NCBI GenBank assembly: GCA_947647615.1
Contig: CANSKS010000028.1
Span: 1-35,945 of the forward strand
Direction of reading: 5' to 3'
From: an uncultured Neglectibacter sp.
Lineage (GTDB): Bacteria > Bacillota > Clostridia > Oscillospirales > Acutalibacteraceae
Length of the DNA stretch: 35,945 bases
In this document: positions 6,026 to 15,042 of the stretch, piece after piece
Position numbering within the stretch: the stretch's first letter is position 1
Layout of the letters: every line of letters starts with the position of its first letter
Made by a program: the position numbers and the translations under genes
The notes under the pieces: generated by a model
Told to the model about the DNA's origin: nothing
The model's input: only the letters and a program-made list of their open reading frames with translations
The model's database searches: none

Positions 6026-8464
6026 TTAGCTCCACATTTCAACCGTGCCTTGGATTTTCTTAGCCTTATGCAGCATTTCGTCTGCTTCTTTCAAAAGTAC
6101 ATCGGGAATATCCGGGCCGACAGCGCCGCCAATGCTAACCGTAACATGCTGCCCCTCTTCCATGCCTTCTATGGAGAGGGCGGAGATGTCGCCGCATATC
6201 TTTTTGAGTTTTGCCTCAAAAGCGTCTGCGGCAATAGATGCACATATTATCACAAATTCATCTCCGTCGTATCGCATTAGCACATCTGGCATTTGAATCT
6301 CTTCGCCAATCACTTCTGTGACATGTACAAGAACACGGTCCCCAATTGCACGGCCATATTTATCGTTGATCCCCCTGAAATTATCTACATTGACGATTGC
6401 TAAAGCGCAAAGGTTTCTCATAGGCTTGATTTTTGCCTTATAATAGCGCCGGTTGAACACATTGGTGAGAGGGTCAAGATAAAAATTCTTGTTTAAATCG
6501 GCGATAGAATTGCCTGAGAAATTTTCCCCGTTTTTGTCGACCATTACGTCATCCGTAATACGGGTCAGCATTTCCAGTACGAGCGGAGTGCCGTTAACCT
6601 TAATATATTGGGAAATAACGTGTAACACTTCGTTATCGAAAAATACGATCTTCGAAAATTTTTTCTGGAACTTCAGACATTTGCTAGAGGTACAGTTGGC
6701 ACACCTTCGATCTTGGTTCCAAAGTTCATAGCAATGGTGGTCGCCTTTTGAGAGTTTCCCGCTGCTGTCAAGATCGACCACCATTTGGTCGGAGGGGTCA
6801 ACCAGTCGGACATTGTATACCATAAATTTAAGGGCGTTGATCAACTGCCAGGCGCTCCTGCCGGTCATCGCGTTGCCGATAGGGAAGAATTCTTCCCTTT
6901 TGCCTGAGACCGAAATTTCGCTGGTTCCGCTGTTCATGGGAATTAGTCTGCCCGCAACTTCCGCATAATTGCTGGTGTCGGCAGAGTCCCAGATGGTTTG
7001 CATCACACACCGGTACCGCTGGGGTGTTTTCCCAGGCGGGCTCAGCAAAATTTCTTCTTTCACGAGGGGCTGTTCGTTTGTGGCCGACATGAGCTTGTCT
7101 CTCAGGTGTTCTGTCATATGGCGGTCATATCCTTCATAGGAAACCAAGTCTTTATCAAGTTCAATGATAGATTTATCTATCCCCAAAATTTCTCTGATGG
7201 CCTTGTTAAGATGAAGAACAGGGGGAGATACAGTATAATAAAATGCGGCGTAGGACTCGTTAAAAAAGAACTTTGAACGCAGGCGTTCCTGTTTCAGGGT
7301 CTGCATGATTTTGTTGGAAGAAAACAATCCATTTTCATGGGAATGCGCCAGAACGTCTGCAACCAGAAGCTGGTTGGAAACCGCGCTGTCCCCAATGATG
7401 TCTTTGGAAACAGAGGAGGGGTCTTTGAGTTTCTCTAATATTCCGGAAAGGCAGTCCAGCAGCAAAGGGTTAAACACCCCGCACTGCCCGTTCAGGATCA
7501 TCTGCATCGCCTGCTCGGGGGAATAGGGCGGCTTGTAGCACCGTTTGCTGGTAAGCGCATCGTACACGTCGGCAATAGACACCACCTGCGCCGCTATGGG
7601 GATTTCGTCTGCCTTCAGCCCGTCAGGATAACCGCGGCCGTCATACCGCTCGTGGTGCCAGCGGCAAATTTCATATGCTATCTTAATGAGCGGGTCGGCG
7701 TTCTCTTTATGCAGCAGCGGTTCCACCATATTGGCGCCTGCCATAGCGTGTCCTTTGATTACCTGAAACTCTTCGTCTGTAAGCTTGCCCGGCTTATTCA
7801 AAATCTCTTCGGGAACAGACATCTTTCCAATGTCATGCAGAGAAGACGCGGTGACAATCTGAGACAGCTCCTCTTTTGACAAAGGGTACCGGTCGGTTGT
7901 TTTCGTCAACTTTTGGAGTAACATTCTGGTAATGTGCCGGATATTCTGGACATGCGCTCCGCTCTCGCCGTTGCGGGTTTCAACAATATGAGAAAGAATG
8001 GAGACCATGGCCTCGCTGCTTTCTTTTTCCTTAATGACTTCATCTACCAGCGCGTTTGACAGTTCCCGCTGTTTGCTGGAAAGTGCGATGGTATTGGCGA
8101 TCCGGTGGCAGACAACTCTTTCGTCATATGGCCGCCGTATTAGATCACTGGCCCCTAAATGATAAGACATTTCAATATTTTCCGGAGTATATTCCGAAGA
8201 GATCATAATTACGGGAACCAAGTCCAGCCATCCGCACTCCTTCATGACCTTGAGAAGCTCAAAGCCATCCATATGAGGCATTACAATGTCTAGCAGCACC
8301 AGAGAAAATTCCTCTACACGTTCCTGTAAGATCATCATAGCCTGTTTCCCATCGCACGCTTCTTCAACAAGATAATCTCTTGCTAGCATACTTGTCATTA
8401 CCAAACGGTTGAGCCTTGAATCATCGACAATCAGGAGCTTATACTTCTTTTCCATTTCCAACAT
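6026..8464 (-). CDS. Response regulator with HD-GYP, Cys-rich PAS-like and GGDEF domains (c-di-GMP turnover)
   Basis: The order over 812 residues is as follows. A receiver domain (about 8-125) has acidic pair Asp14-Asp15 and phosphoacceptor Asp59, with Arg111-Pro where Lys-Pro is usual. An HD-GYP c-di-GMP phosphodiesterase domain (about 150-350) has His210-Asp211 and HHERYDGRGYPDG at 270-282. A middle region contains two PAS-like segments; the second has the Cys cluster HHCYELWNQDRRCANC...KC, which could bind a metal or Fe-S cluster. A C-terminal GGDEF domain has DGDEF at 733-737 and no RxxD inhibitory site (QMPD at that place). The protein could therefore both make and degrade c-di-GMP. The start at 8464 has GGAGG 8-10 bases upstream. 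No histidine kinase gene is adjacent. Its leader runs into the invertible segment at 8592-8862, whose promoter faces away in this orientation. Confidence 0.92.
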   Translation of the reverse strand: MLEMEKKYKLLIVDDSRLNRLVMTSMLARDYLVEEACDGKQAMMILQERVEEFSLVLLDIVMPHMDGFELLKVMKECGWLDLVPVIMISSEYTPENIEMSYHLGASDLIRRPYDERVVCHRIANTIALSSKQRELSNALVDEVIKEKESSEAMVSILSHIVETRNGESGAHVQNIRHITRMLLQKLTKTTDRYPLSKEELSQIVTASSLHDIGKMSVPEEILNKPGKLTDEEFQVIKGHAMAGANMVEPLLHKENADPLIKIAYEICRWHHERYDGRGYPDGLKADEIPIAAQVVSIADVYDALTSKRCYKPPYSPEQAMQMILNGQCGVFNPLLLDCLSGILEKLKDPSSVSKDIIGDSAVSNQLLVADVLAHSHENGLFSSNKIMQTLKQERLRSKFFFNESYAAFYYTVSPPVLHLNKAIREILGIDKSIIELDKDLVSYEGYDRHMTEHLRDKLMSATNEQPLVKEEILLSPPGKTPQRYRCVMQTIWDSADTSNYAEVAGRLIPMNSGTSEISVSGKREEFFPIGNAMTGRSAWQLINALKFMVYNVRLVDPSDQMVVDLDSSGKLSKGDHHCYELWNQDRRCANCTSSKCLKFQKKFSKIVFFDNEVLHVISQYIKVNGTPLVLEMLTRITDDVMVDKNGENFSGNSIADLNKNFYLDPLTNVFNRRYYKAKIKPMRNLCALAIVNVDNFRGINDKYGRAIGDRVLVHVTEVIGEEIQMPDVLMRYDGDEFVIICASIAADAFEAKLKKICGDISALSIEGMEEGQHVTVSIGGAVGPDIPDVLLKEADEMLHKAKKIQGTVEMWS

Positions 8465-8591
8465 TGCGGTTTCCTCCAGGATTCTAAACTAGTCTTGTAG
8501 CTTTGTGTCTCTGTATTTCCCAGGGTAGGCTTAATTTTTTGCTGTGGCGGATATGGTTTTTTGGAATGTTCTGCCGCTACGACCCGCTTCC

Positions 8592-8623
8592 TTCGAAAAC
8601 GCACAGAATTTATCTTATGTTTC
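8592..8623 (-). repeat. Left inverted repeat of the invertible promoter segment (IR-L)
   Basis: These 32 bases are the exact reverse complement of 8831-8862. The match stops at both ends, so the repeat is exactly 32 bp. It lies 128 bases upstream of the start codon of the c-di-GMP gene. Confidence 0.95.
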
Positions 8624-8708
8624 CACTATTCAAGAGCTGGGAGAAAATAATACTATAAAAGAAACCTTTTTGGGGGCCAGCGGCCAATATACAGACGCAA
8701 AAAAGTAA

Positions 8709-8734
8709 GGCCGGAAAAAGCCAGTTTTTCGGCC
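8709..8734 (-). terminator. Terminator inside the invertible segment, pointing left
   Basis: GGCCGGAAAAA (8709-8719) pairs with TTTTTCGGCC (8725-8734) with one bulged G and a 5-base loop. On the minus strand it is followed by TTACTTTTTT; on the plus strand no T-run follows. In this orientation it would stop leftward transcription from the recombinase side before the c-di-GMP gene. Confidence 0.65.
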
Positions 8735-8768
8735 CATGCTTTTCTTGCATATTTATTCATATAGTTTC

Positions 8769-8798
8769 TTGCAATTTTCAAGGTGGTTGTGCTATAAT
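8769..8798 (+). promoter_or_regulatory. Invertible promoter P1
   Basis: TTGCAA (8769-8774), 18 bp, TATAAT (8793-8798), preceded by TGC, which makes an extended -10 element. It is the strongest promoter-like sequence in the switch and points right, toward the 3' end of the recombinase gene. There is no sense gene downstream in this orientation. Confidence 0.75.
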
Positions 8799-8830
8799 AA
8801 GCAAAGTTTTTTCAAAAAAATATTCGCACA

Positions 8831-8862
8831 GAAACATAAGATAAATTCTGTGCGTTTTCGAA
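8831..8862 (+). repeat. Right inverted repeat of the invertible segment (IR-R)
   Basis: A perfect 32-bp partner of 8592-8623. It includes the right arm of a symmetric site: CGCACAGAA (8825-8833), a 12-bp centre, and TTCTGTGCG (8846-8854). This is the arm-centre-arm form expected of a tyrosine recombinase core site. Confidence 0.95.
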
Positions 8863-8870
8863 ATATTTTC

Positions 8871-8899
8871 TTGTATCTTTGGGCTGGTTATGCTACAAT
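8871..8899 (+). promoter_or_regulatory. Promoter P2, a diverged duplicate of P1
   Basis: TTGTAT (8871-8876), 17 bp, TACAAT (8894-8899), again preceded by TGC. The block from about 8866 to 8956 aligns with 8762-8855, so promoter and site were duplicated together. It lies outside the IR-L/IR-R pair and points right, antisense to the recombinase gene. Confidence 0.6.
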
Positions 8900-8928
8900 A
8901 AATAAAATTTTAGAGTAAAAGCAGTCGT

Positions 8929-8956
8929 ACAGAAACATAAGATAAATTCTGTTGCG
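8929..8956 (+). repeat. Third, imperfect copy of the recombination site (IR3)
   Basis: 24 bases (8929-8952) match the IR-R region exactly, starting at ACAGAAACATAAG. An inserted T then breaks the outer TTCTGTGCG arm. It has the same direction as IR-R and is inverted relative to IR-L. It ends at the recombinase stop codon (8957-8959). Confidence 0.85.
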
Positions 8957-9802
8957 CTAACTCACTAGTTTCATCCGGTCTAAGCAGCGGATATGTTCTG
9001 CTCCGGTGGTCATGAGGTAGATGCGGGTGGTATTGATGGAACTGTGCCCCAGTACATCGGCTAGCTTTACGATATCCCGGGTGGAGCGGTAAAAAGCGGT
9101 GGCAAATAGATGGCGCAGGTTGTGGGGGAATATTTTAGAAGGCTTTACTCCGGCCTCTTTATAAAGGGACTTCATGGCCCTCCAAATTTGAAAGCGGCTA
9201 AGTGGTTTCCTGTCTTCGGCGCAGAAGATTGCGCCGGAGACGATTTTTTGTTTTTGGGCATATTTTCGCAGCTTTCGGGCCAACTTTCCCGGAAAAAGGA
9301 TAGTGCGTATTTTCCCTTTAAGGGCTACATCTGCCCGGCCAATGGCAACGGCCTCTACGGTGATATAGCGCAGCTCAGACACGCGGATGCCGGTGCCACA
9401 AATAGCTTCCATCGCCAGGGCAAGCCATTCTCTGCCCAAAGACCGGGCCGTTTCCACCAAGCGTTGGTACTCGGGTAGGGTTAGCTCCCGTGACGATTCC
9501 CGGAACGCCAACCGCTGTACTTTCAGAAACTTTACCCGGTATTCTTCCCAACCCAAAAAGCGGAACAAACCGTTTACTGCAGATAGCTTGGTGTTGACGG
9601 TGGCGGAGGTCTGCCCTTGGTCTGAAAGGAAGATTTTATATTGAGTTACGGCCTCCTTTGTAACCGGCTTGCCGTCCAGCCACCTGGCAAAGGCCTGGAC
9701 ATCCCGCAGATATTTCTCTACAGTGGCGTCGGCGCGTTCTCCAGTGCGGAGATAGGTAGCGTAATTGTCCATCTGTGTGCGTGTCAGTGTGCGGTTTTCC
9801 AT
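8957..9802 (-). CDS. Tyrosine recombinase, probable switch invertase
   Basis: This 281-residue protein has an N-terminal SAM-like DNA-binding domain (about 5-90; ATVEKYLRDVQAFARWL) and a C-terminal catalytic domain. Arg140 (TGIRVSELR), probable Lys164, His227-x-x-Arg230 (HNLRHLFAT), His253 (LGHSS) and nucleophile Tyr262 complete the integrase/XerD-type active site. The start at 9802 has AAGGAGG about 6 bases upstream. It is shorter than most phage integrases, and no phage or integrative-element genes surround it. The gene's end touches a copy of the repeat it presumably recognises, so its most likely target is the adjacent promoter segment. P1 and P2 read antisense into its 3' end in the current orientation. 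Confidence 0.9.
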   Translation of the reverse strand: MENRTLTRTQMDNYATYLRTGERADATVEKYLRDVQAFARWLDGKPVTKEAVTQYKIFLSDQGQTSATVNTKLSAVNGLFRFLGWEEYRVKFLKVQRLAFRESSRELTLPEYQRLVETARSLGREWLALAMEAICGTGIRVSELRYITVEAVAIGRADVALKGKIRTILFPGKLARKLRKYAQKQKIVSGAIFCAEDRKPLSRFQIWRAMKSLYKEAGVKPSKIFPHNLRHLFATAFYRSTRDIVKLADVLGHSSINTTRIYLMTTGAEHIRCLDRMKLVS

Positions 9803-14980: not shown

Positions 14981-15009
14981 TTGACAAAAAAGGCAGAAGG
15001 GAATAGAAT
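14981..15009 (+). promoter_or_regulatory. Promoter of the TetR/ABC exporter operon
   Basis: TTGACA (14981-14986), 17 bp, TAGAAT (15004-15009). A long palindromic operator begins at the last base of the -10 box. Confidence 0.75.
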
Positions 15010-15042
15010 AAGAAACATAAGTTGCGCAACTTATGTTTCTTA
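15009..15042. promoter_or_regulatory. 34-bp perfect palindromic operator, probable TetR site
   Basis: The half-site TAAGAAACATAAGTTGC (15009-15025) is followed directly by its exact complement to 15042. It covers the transcript start immediately 3' of the -10 box, and the TetR gene starts 20 bases later. This is a classical autorepression geometry. Confidence 0.8.

Follow-up and report, generated by a model that had tools for sequence, protein, structure and literature searches.

The window, that is, the whole stretch of 35,945 nucleotides of uncultured Neglectibacter sp. DNA that was analysed, contains a perfect inverted repeat with arms at 8592-8623 and 8831-8862. As the initial annotation had claimed, the arms are 32 nt long, 100% complementary and separated by a loop of 207 nt. 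No inverted repeat listed for the window is longer than this one, whose score of 32 compares with a maximum of 14 across 88 shuffled stretches. The repeat lies between two genes on the minus strand, one for an 812-aa protein with REC, HD-GYP and GGDEF domains (6026-8464) and the other for a 281-aa tyrosine recombinase (8957-9802), which does adjoin the repeat as had been stated. The enclosed 207 bp contain no open reading frame of at least 80 aa, and an Rfam search of the window returned no matches.

The gene-side arm, S1 (8592-8623, minus strand), and the recombinase-side arm, S2 (8831-8862, plus strand), both score 18.7 against the site motif of the recombinase family described below. A third site, S3 (8932-8952, plus strand), was overlooked in the initial annotation. 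It is a direct repeat of S2, located 101 bp from it and directly after the recombinase gene, and it matches the 21-bp core of the arms with 0 mismatches (motif score 17.7). When up to three mismatches were allowed, the core site was found three times in the whole 2.8-Mb assembly (94.8% complete), always at the switch locus. The reversed pattern of the core, used as a control, gave no matches in the assembly, and the 21-bp site gave none in the viral contigs scanned. Outside the core, the 11 bp of S2 at 8852-8862 are the same as the gene-side flank of S1 (8592-8602), and the inner flank of S2 is similar to that of S3; these likenesses are possibly the footprint of an earlier rearrangement or recombination among the three sites. 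Elsewhere in the window, a perfect 17-bp palindrome at 15009-15042 contains GAAACATAAG, a stretch also present in the switch sites, and overlaps the position (15033) at which a TetR-like gene is predicted to start. This sharing is perhaps due to chance.

The extended -10 promoter reported within the loop is present at 8769-8798 (plus strand). This promoter, p1, has the form TTGCAA-18-TATAAT with TG before the -10 element (TTGCAA-18-TGC.TATAAT), and it points at the recombinase gene, which is the OFF orientation. A consensus scan of 8440-9000 found this one promoter against a shuffle mean of 1.8; consequently, p1 is not significant by the scan alone. Promoter scoring and alignment to p1 revealed a candidate second promoter, p2 (8871-8899, plus strand; TTGTAT-17-TGC.TACAAT), between S2 and S3. 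It is absent from the consensus-scan output and from the initial annotation and, judged purely as a promoter, is only moderately convincing, with 19 of 300 shuffles scoring equally high. None of 500 shuffles aligned as well as the p1 and p2 stretches do. With a shift of exactly 101 bp, the two promoter-side stretches are identical at 43 of 71 bases; the other shifts tried gave 18.7 on average and never more than 30. In addition, S2 starts 33 bp past the end of the p1 -10 element, and S3 likewise starts 33 bp past that of p2. The alignment and the equal spacing thus indicate that promoter plus site were duplicated together, and the arrangement is, as read from the sequence, a diverged tandem duplication with a period of 101 bp.

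Behind p1 lies a terminator-like hairpin (8709-8734) with a T-rich tail on both strands. The consensus scan lists it on the plus strand only (one found, shuffle mean 0.7), and the family-wide terminator scoring scored it in both directions. The leader from S1 to the start codon of the 812-aa protein gene (8465-8591, minus strand) has a GGAGG ribosome-binding site, noted by eye. No fixed promoter above chance was found in this leader, where the best score of 6.6 was equalled by 29.5% of shuffles.

Recombinase and target gene

The product of 8957-9802 is Xer-like and carries a Phage_integrase domain, according to Pfam and NCBIfam profiles. Its reading frame is open and contains the invariant residues of its family: R140, K162, K164, H227, R230, H253 and Y262 are invariant in a 13-member alignment and presumably have catalytic roles. 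Xer profiles are its best NCBIfam matches, and the nearest solved structures by profile are 4a8e, 1a0p and 5hxy; however, it falls short of each Xer equivalog cut-off listed (XerA 138 against 220, XerD 114 against 329.6, XerC 105.5 against 335.15). Its sites form an inverted local pair, unlike dif, the site of Xer recombinases. In E. coli, the fim switch consists of a promoter that a tyrosine recombinase inverts between short flanking repeats. The present locus would resemble it in these respects, but its recombinase scores far below the curated cut-offs of the tyrosine-type DNA invertase subfamilies (27.5 against 221; 25 against 222), whose profiles presumably cover FimB/FimE. The enzyme is presumed to be a dedicated invertase. 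Eleven of 29 genus genomes contain relatives with 49-67% identity, the genome under study being counted through a second copy on contig C51 (66%). This copy belongs to a second switch of the family in the same genome (G000:C51, 7917-8215; L044), which has a different site sequence and a promoter in the OFF orientation.

In the target protein, Pfam recognizes REC (residues 11-122), HD-GYP/HD_5 (158-324) and GGDEF (662-804). The PAS domain that had also been proposed has no Pfam match at E 1e-3. The HD and HHERYDGRGYP motifs are intact, whereas the GGDEF signature reads DGDEF; compared by eye with L163, a protein of this genome in which GGEEF is intact, the domain has VNVD for FDID and GR for GH. 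If these motifs carry the meanings that they are assumed to have here, the intact HD-GYP and the degenerate GGDEF make the target probably a c-di-GMP phosphodiesterase. The earlier description of a c-di-GMP turnover protein therefore stands as far as a c-di-GMP enzyme is concerned, with degradation as the better reading.

The c-di-GMP system of this genome looks small. There are two GGDEF matches, one PilZ match, five flagellin-domain matches, three HD_5 matches (one within a 117-aa frame) and one partial EAL match, which by eye is of the EAL-HDOD type without an EAL motif. A REC-GGDEF gene with GGEEF (G000:C4:30234-31474) is the only GGDEF gene whose motif is intact, and the single PilZ match is found nearby. 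A gene on contig C20 encodes a REC-HD-GYP relative of the target with 43% identity and no GGDEF match. Relatives of the target with 41-47% identity (E 1e-60) were found in 19 of 29 genus genomes, the own genome being counted via C20. Most of them match about residues 4-518, and two match only about the first 340; judged by place and by eye, none adjoins a recombinase of the switch family. A search for c-di-GMP-I riboswitches gave none in the genome and is uninformative, because the control genomes likewise gave none.

The module across the recombinase family

Loci encoding relatives of the recombinase were taken from the genus genomes and from the best 80 of at least 577 relatives on genome contigs (577 of 594 listed stretches encode one). 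The titles of these 80 name Oscillospiraceae, Lachnospiraceae and other Clostridia. Three genus loci were excluded: L058, a contig-end fragment; L059, with 29% identity; and L060, with a partial recombinase. Of the 98 loci entered, 10 with less than 250 bp downstream were dropped, which left 88, including the window and one duplicate (L049, from G005:C56, and L140 agree at 100% over 3,330 bp and so represent a single locus; neither has the repeat). An inverted repeat scoring at least 12 follows the recombinase gene in 76 of the 88 loci, and the median score of all 88 is 17. The same score was reached by 2 of 88 dinucleotide shuffles and by 4 of 85 stretches upstream of the gene, three loci with less than 250 bp upstream having scored 0 and been left out of the denominator. 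No repeat over the threshold was found in L049, L052, L054, L068, L075, L078, L084, L101, L120, L123, L129 and L140. The median loop length of the 76 loci is 234.5 bp. Site sequences differ between loci, yet they share the dyad motif GACAAAAT-CAAT-ATTTTGTC, against which the three sites of the window score 17.7 to 18.7.

With approximate consensus promoter weights and shuffles that preserve base composition only, as also for the hairpins, the best promoter score reached at least 10 in 72 of 76 segments, compared with 31 of 76 shuffled ones. The best promoter points to the recombinase (OFF) in 51 segments and to the downstream gene (ON) in 14, and its direction is unclear in 11. In the 14 ON loci, 33-69 bp separate the start of the -10 element from the gene-side loop end. 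Among the 65 segments with a clear promoter direction, a terminator-like hairpin scoring at least 10 runs against that direction in 48 and with it in 29; none of the 65 shuffled segments had one. Inversion is visible between two relatives: in Acetatifactor L103 and L126, the genes for the recombinase (84% identity) and the target (92%) keep a collinear arrangement, whereas the segment has the opposite orientation (88-90%). Similarly, L090 and L091, two loci of one Oscillibacter MAG, differ in their targets, and their segments are homologous (82%) but oppositely oriented.

A third site was found by scan in 9 of the 76 loci (more than 1 kb away in L046 and L051), and additionally by eye in L136. 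Eight intervals between neighbouring sites were scored for promoters with 300 shuffles each. An inter-site promoter stands above chance in L069 (1 of 300 shuffles equally high), L127 (0 of 300) and L136 (4 of 300), is marginal in the window (19 of 300) and is unconvincing in L137 (42), L055 (79), L095 (182) and L100 (195). Because L069 and L127, and less clearly L136, also have such a promoter, selection may have favoured the layout in which a promoter lies between duplicated sites.

The target of each switch was chosen by rule as the longest codirectional reading frame starting within 900 bp, a rule whose picks in L053 and L097 look like wrong frames. Sequence clustering of the 88 picked genes gave 21 second recombinases, 15 proteins of the L063 type, 15 signal-peptide-like proteins and further small groups; Pfam was run on 10 other targets and on that of the window. 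Most proteins of the third of these groups have signal-peptide-like starts, by eye, and SLH is confirmed in one of its members, L119; five further targets are of a Cys-rich repeat type, also by eye. The gene at L119:6072-8135 has SLH and Beta-lactamase-family domains and is preceded by a segment without a clear promoter direction. GGDEF-type similarity was found in four targets (the window, L098, L131 and L133). L098 (EAL and GGDEF) and L133 (GGDEF) are clear c-di-GMP genes, both in the ON orientation, and L131 has a BTAD domain and a GGDEF match below the cut-off.

The cluster of 15 small proteins (L043, L044, L045, L063, L064, L065, L070, L074, L079, L091, L093, L095, L117, L125 and L134), to which the target of the second switch of the genome (L044) belongs, has a Cys-containing part. 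One member, L063, was tested and gave a weak AP2 match below the cut-off; some switches of the family may therefore control DNA-binding regulators. A second tyrosine recombinase is the target in 21 of the 88 loci (one a duplicate), for example L048, L049, L051, L052, L080, L081, L099 and L112. In the five genus loci measured, these enzymes are 25-33% identical to the window recombinase. A second recombinase would be made mainly in the ON state, and it could act as a partner or impose a bias on the switch. A cascade, in which each second recombinase would have its own inverton, was rejected as a rule, because a repeat follows the gene in only 1 (L051) of the 19 examined; 20 of the 21 members of the cluster had been entered, L140 being omitted as a duplicate, and one was open-ended.

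Interpretation and rival explanations

The initial annotation had proposed an invertible promoter with an adjacent recombinase, the gene at 6026-8464 as its target and the OFF state in the window. The comparative evidence supports this proposal: the repeat is conserved in 76 of 88 loci, the promoter occurs in either orientation, the segment is inverted between L103 and L126, and the leader has no fixed promoter. Very probably, then, the locus is a phase-variable promoter inverted by a recombinase of its own; it would control the REC-HD-GYP-GGDEF gene and is OFF in the window. From the sites, promoter-like sequences, hairpin and gene order that are present, their conservation and the one inversion between relatives, we infer inversion at the window locus, the pairs of sites that react, the activity of promoter and enzyme, and the phenotype.

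It is very improbable that an integrative element left the repeats behind as remnants of its attachment sites and that the recombinase is an ordinary integrase. The Phage_integrase domain and the resemblance of the S2/S3 direct repeat to the att sites of an excisable segment would suit such an origin, but the layout conserved in 76 of 88 loci is an inverted pair enclosing a promoter, and the 207 bp enclosed in the window have no reading frame of 80 aa or more. There is a small chance that the locus is a former switch now locked OFF, with inactive sites or recombinase and a target that is silent or driven from elsewhere. The one assembly of the species shows one orientation of the segment, and the excess of OFF over ON loci in the family (51 against 14 of 76) could reflect locked or rarely flipping loci. 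However, no mismatch interrupts the 32 bp of the arms, S3 retains an identical 21-bp core, and the recombinase is open with the invariant residues of its family.

Equally improbable is the view that the segment mainly controls the recombinase, with p1 and p2 running antisense into its gene and any effect on the target being secondary. Both promoters face the 3' end of the recombinase gene with no terminator-like hairpin listed between, and the 51 OFF loci have the same promoter direction. By contrast, the spacing of 33-69 bp from the -10 element to the gene-side loop end in the 14 ON loci and a hairpin placed where the target would be insulated argue for target control, with which feedback on the recombinase can coexist.

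Under the preferred reading of a promoter switch for the target gene, the recombinase would recombine the short dyad sites directly after its own gene. Inversion between S1 and S2 would turn p1 from the recombinase gene (OFF) to the REC-HD-GYP-GGDEF gene (ON), inversion between S1 and S3 would turn p1 and p2 together toward the target, and recombination between S2 and S3 would delete p2. The hairpin behind p1 would block transcription arriving from the recombinase side from reaching the target in either orientation; OFF is therefore probably tight. Since the target is likely a phosphodiesterase, ON cells would be expected to contain less c-di-GMP and, through the PilZ protein and the flagella, to have motility or attachment altered in one direction or the other. 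A tentative extension, somewhat less probable than its negation, is a multi-position switch with the states OFF, p1 only, p1 plus p2, and p2 only, reached by successive inversions, and with S2-S3 deletion as a permanent change. Such a switch would let the cell adjust the amount of one phosphodiesterase in graded, heritable steps within a small c-di-GMP system.

Known systems and significance

PsrA of S. pneumoniae serves a different kind of locus. It is a tyrosine recombinase, and the available part of its paper uses the phrase "three inverted repeats" (PMC7096588). A c-di-GMP switch as such is not unprecedented, because pdcB and pdcC of C. difficile are, in the available text of their report, phase-varied c-di-GMP phosphodiesterases (PMC9286219). 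As predicted here, the invertible promoter lies upstream of a c-di-GMP phosphodiesterase gene. According to the same text, c-di-GMP and motility depend on the orientation in which the pdcB switch is locked, and the locked-ON mutant has less c-di-GMP, swims less and moves more on surfaces (PMC9286219); a simple motility prediction consequently does not carry over. That text states that the recombinase of the pdcB switch was not identified (PMC9286219), whereas here the recombinase gene adjoins the switch. The switch of the window also differs from pdcB and pdcC in having three sites and two promoters. Seven C. difficile sites are described in the part of another report that was available, which places the recombinase beside the switch in most characterized systems (PMC5903667); one C. 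difficile target there is a GGDEF+EAL protein, in contrast to the HD-GYP target here.

Another close known system is inverton group 139, of which, in the available text, 32 of 33 members come from Clostridia and which is tied to invertase group 35 (PMC11892184). Orientation changes of this group were seen there in reads, including those of Intestinimonas butyriciproducens, the source of L087. The group resembles the present family in having a tyrosine recombinase near the inverton and in its host class, Clostridia, and two of its examples have loops of 227 and 205 bp, calculated from their coordinates, compared with the median of 234.5 bp here (PMC11892184). The family is probably inverton group 139/invertase group 35, with which loop length and host class agree. 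The terms "c-di-GMP" and "GGDEF" do not occur in the main text of that paper as far as it was available (PMC11892184).

Phase-varied c-di-GMP phosphodiesterases are thus already known from C. difficile, and an inverton group that probably corresponds to the present family appeared in print in 2025, as far as the available parts of these sources go. An HD-GYP target beside its own recombinase and a three-site, two-promoter layout are apparently new; among the matches listed, none describes an HD-GYP gene as the target of a switch or a promoter switch built from two promoters and three sites, which is weak evidence of absence.

If the proposed reading is true, a second messenger for motility and attachment would be heritable and bistable in a gut bacterium. 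Because the c-di-GMP system of the genome looks small, a single switch could have consequences that are easy to discern. At the level of the family, the results point to recombinase-plus-promoter modules in gut Clostridia whose targets are predictable from the gene after the repeat and comprise surface proteins, possible DNA-binding regulators, other recombinases and c-di-GMP enzymes. The three-site form would provide a simple test case for graded promoter invertons.
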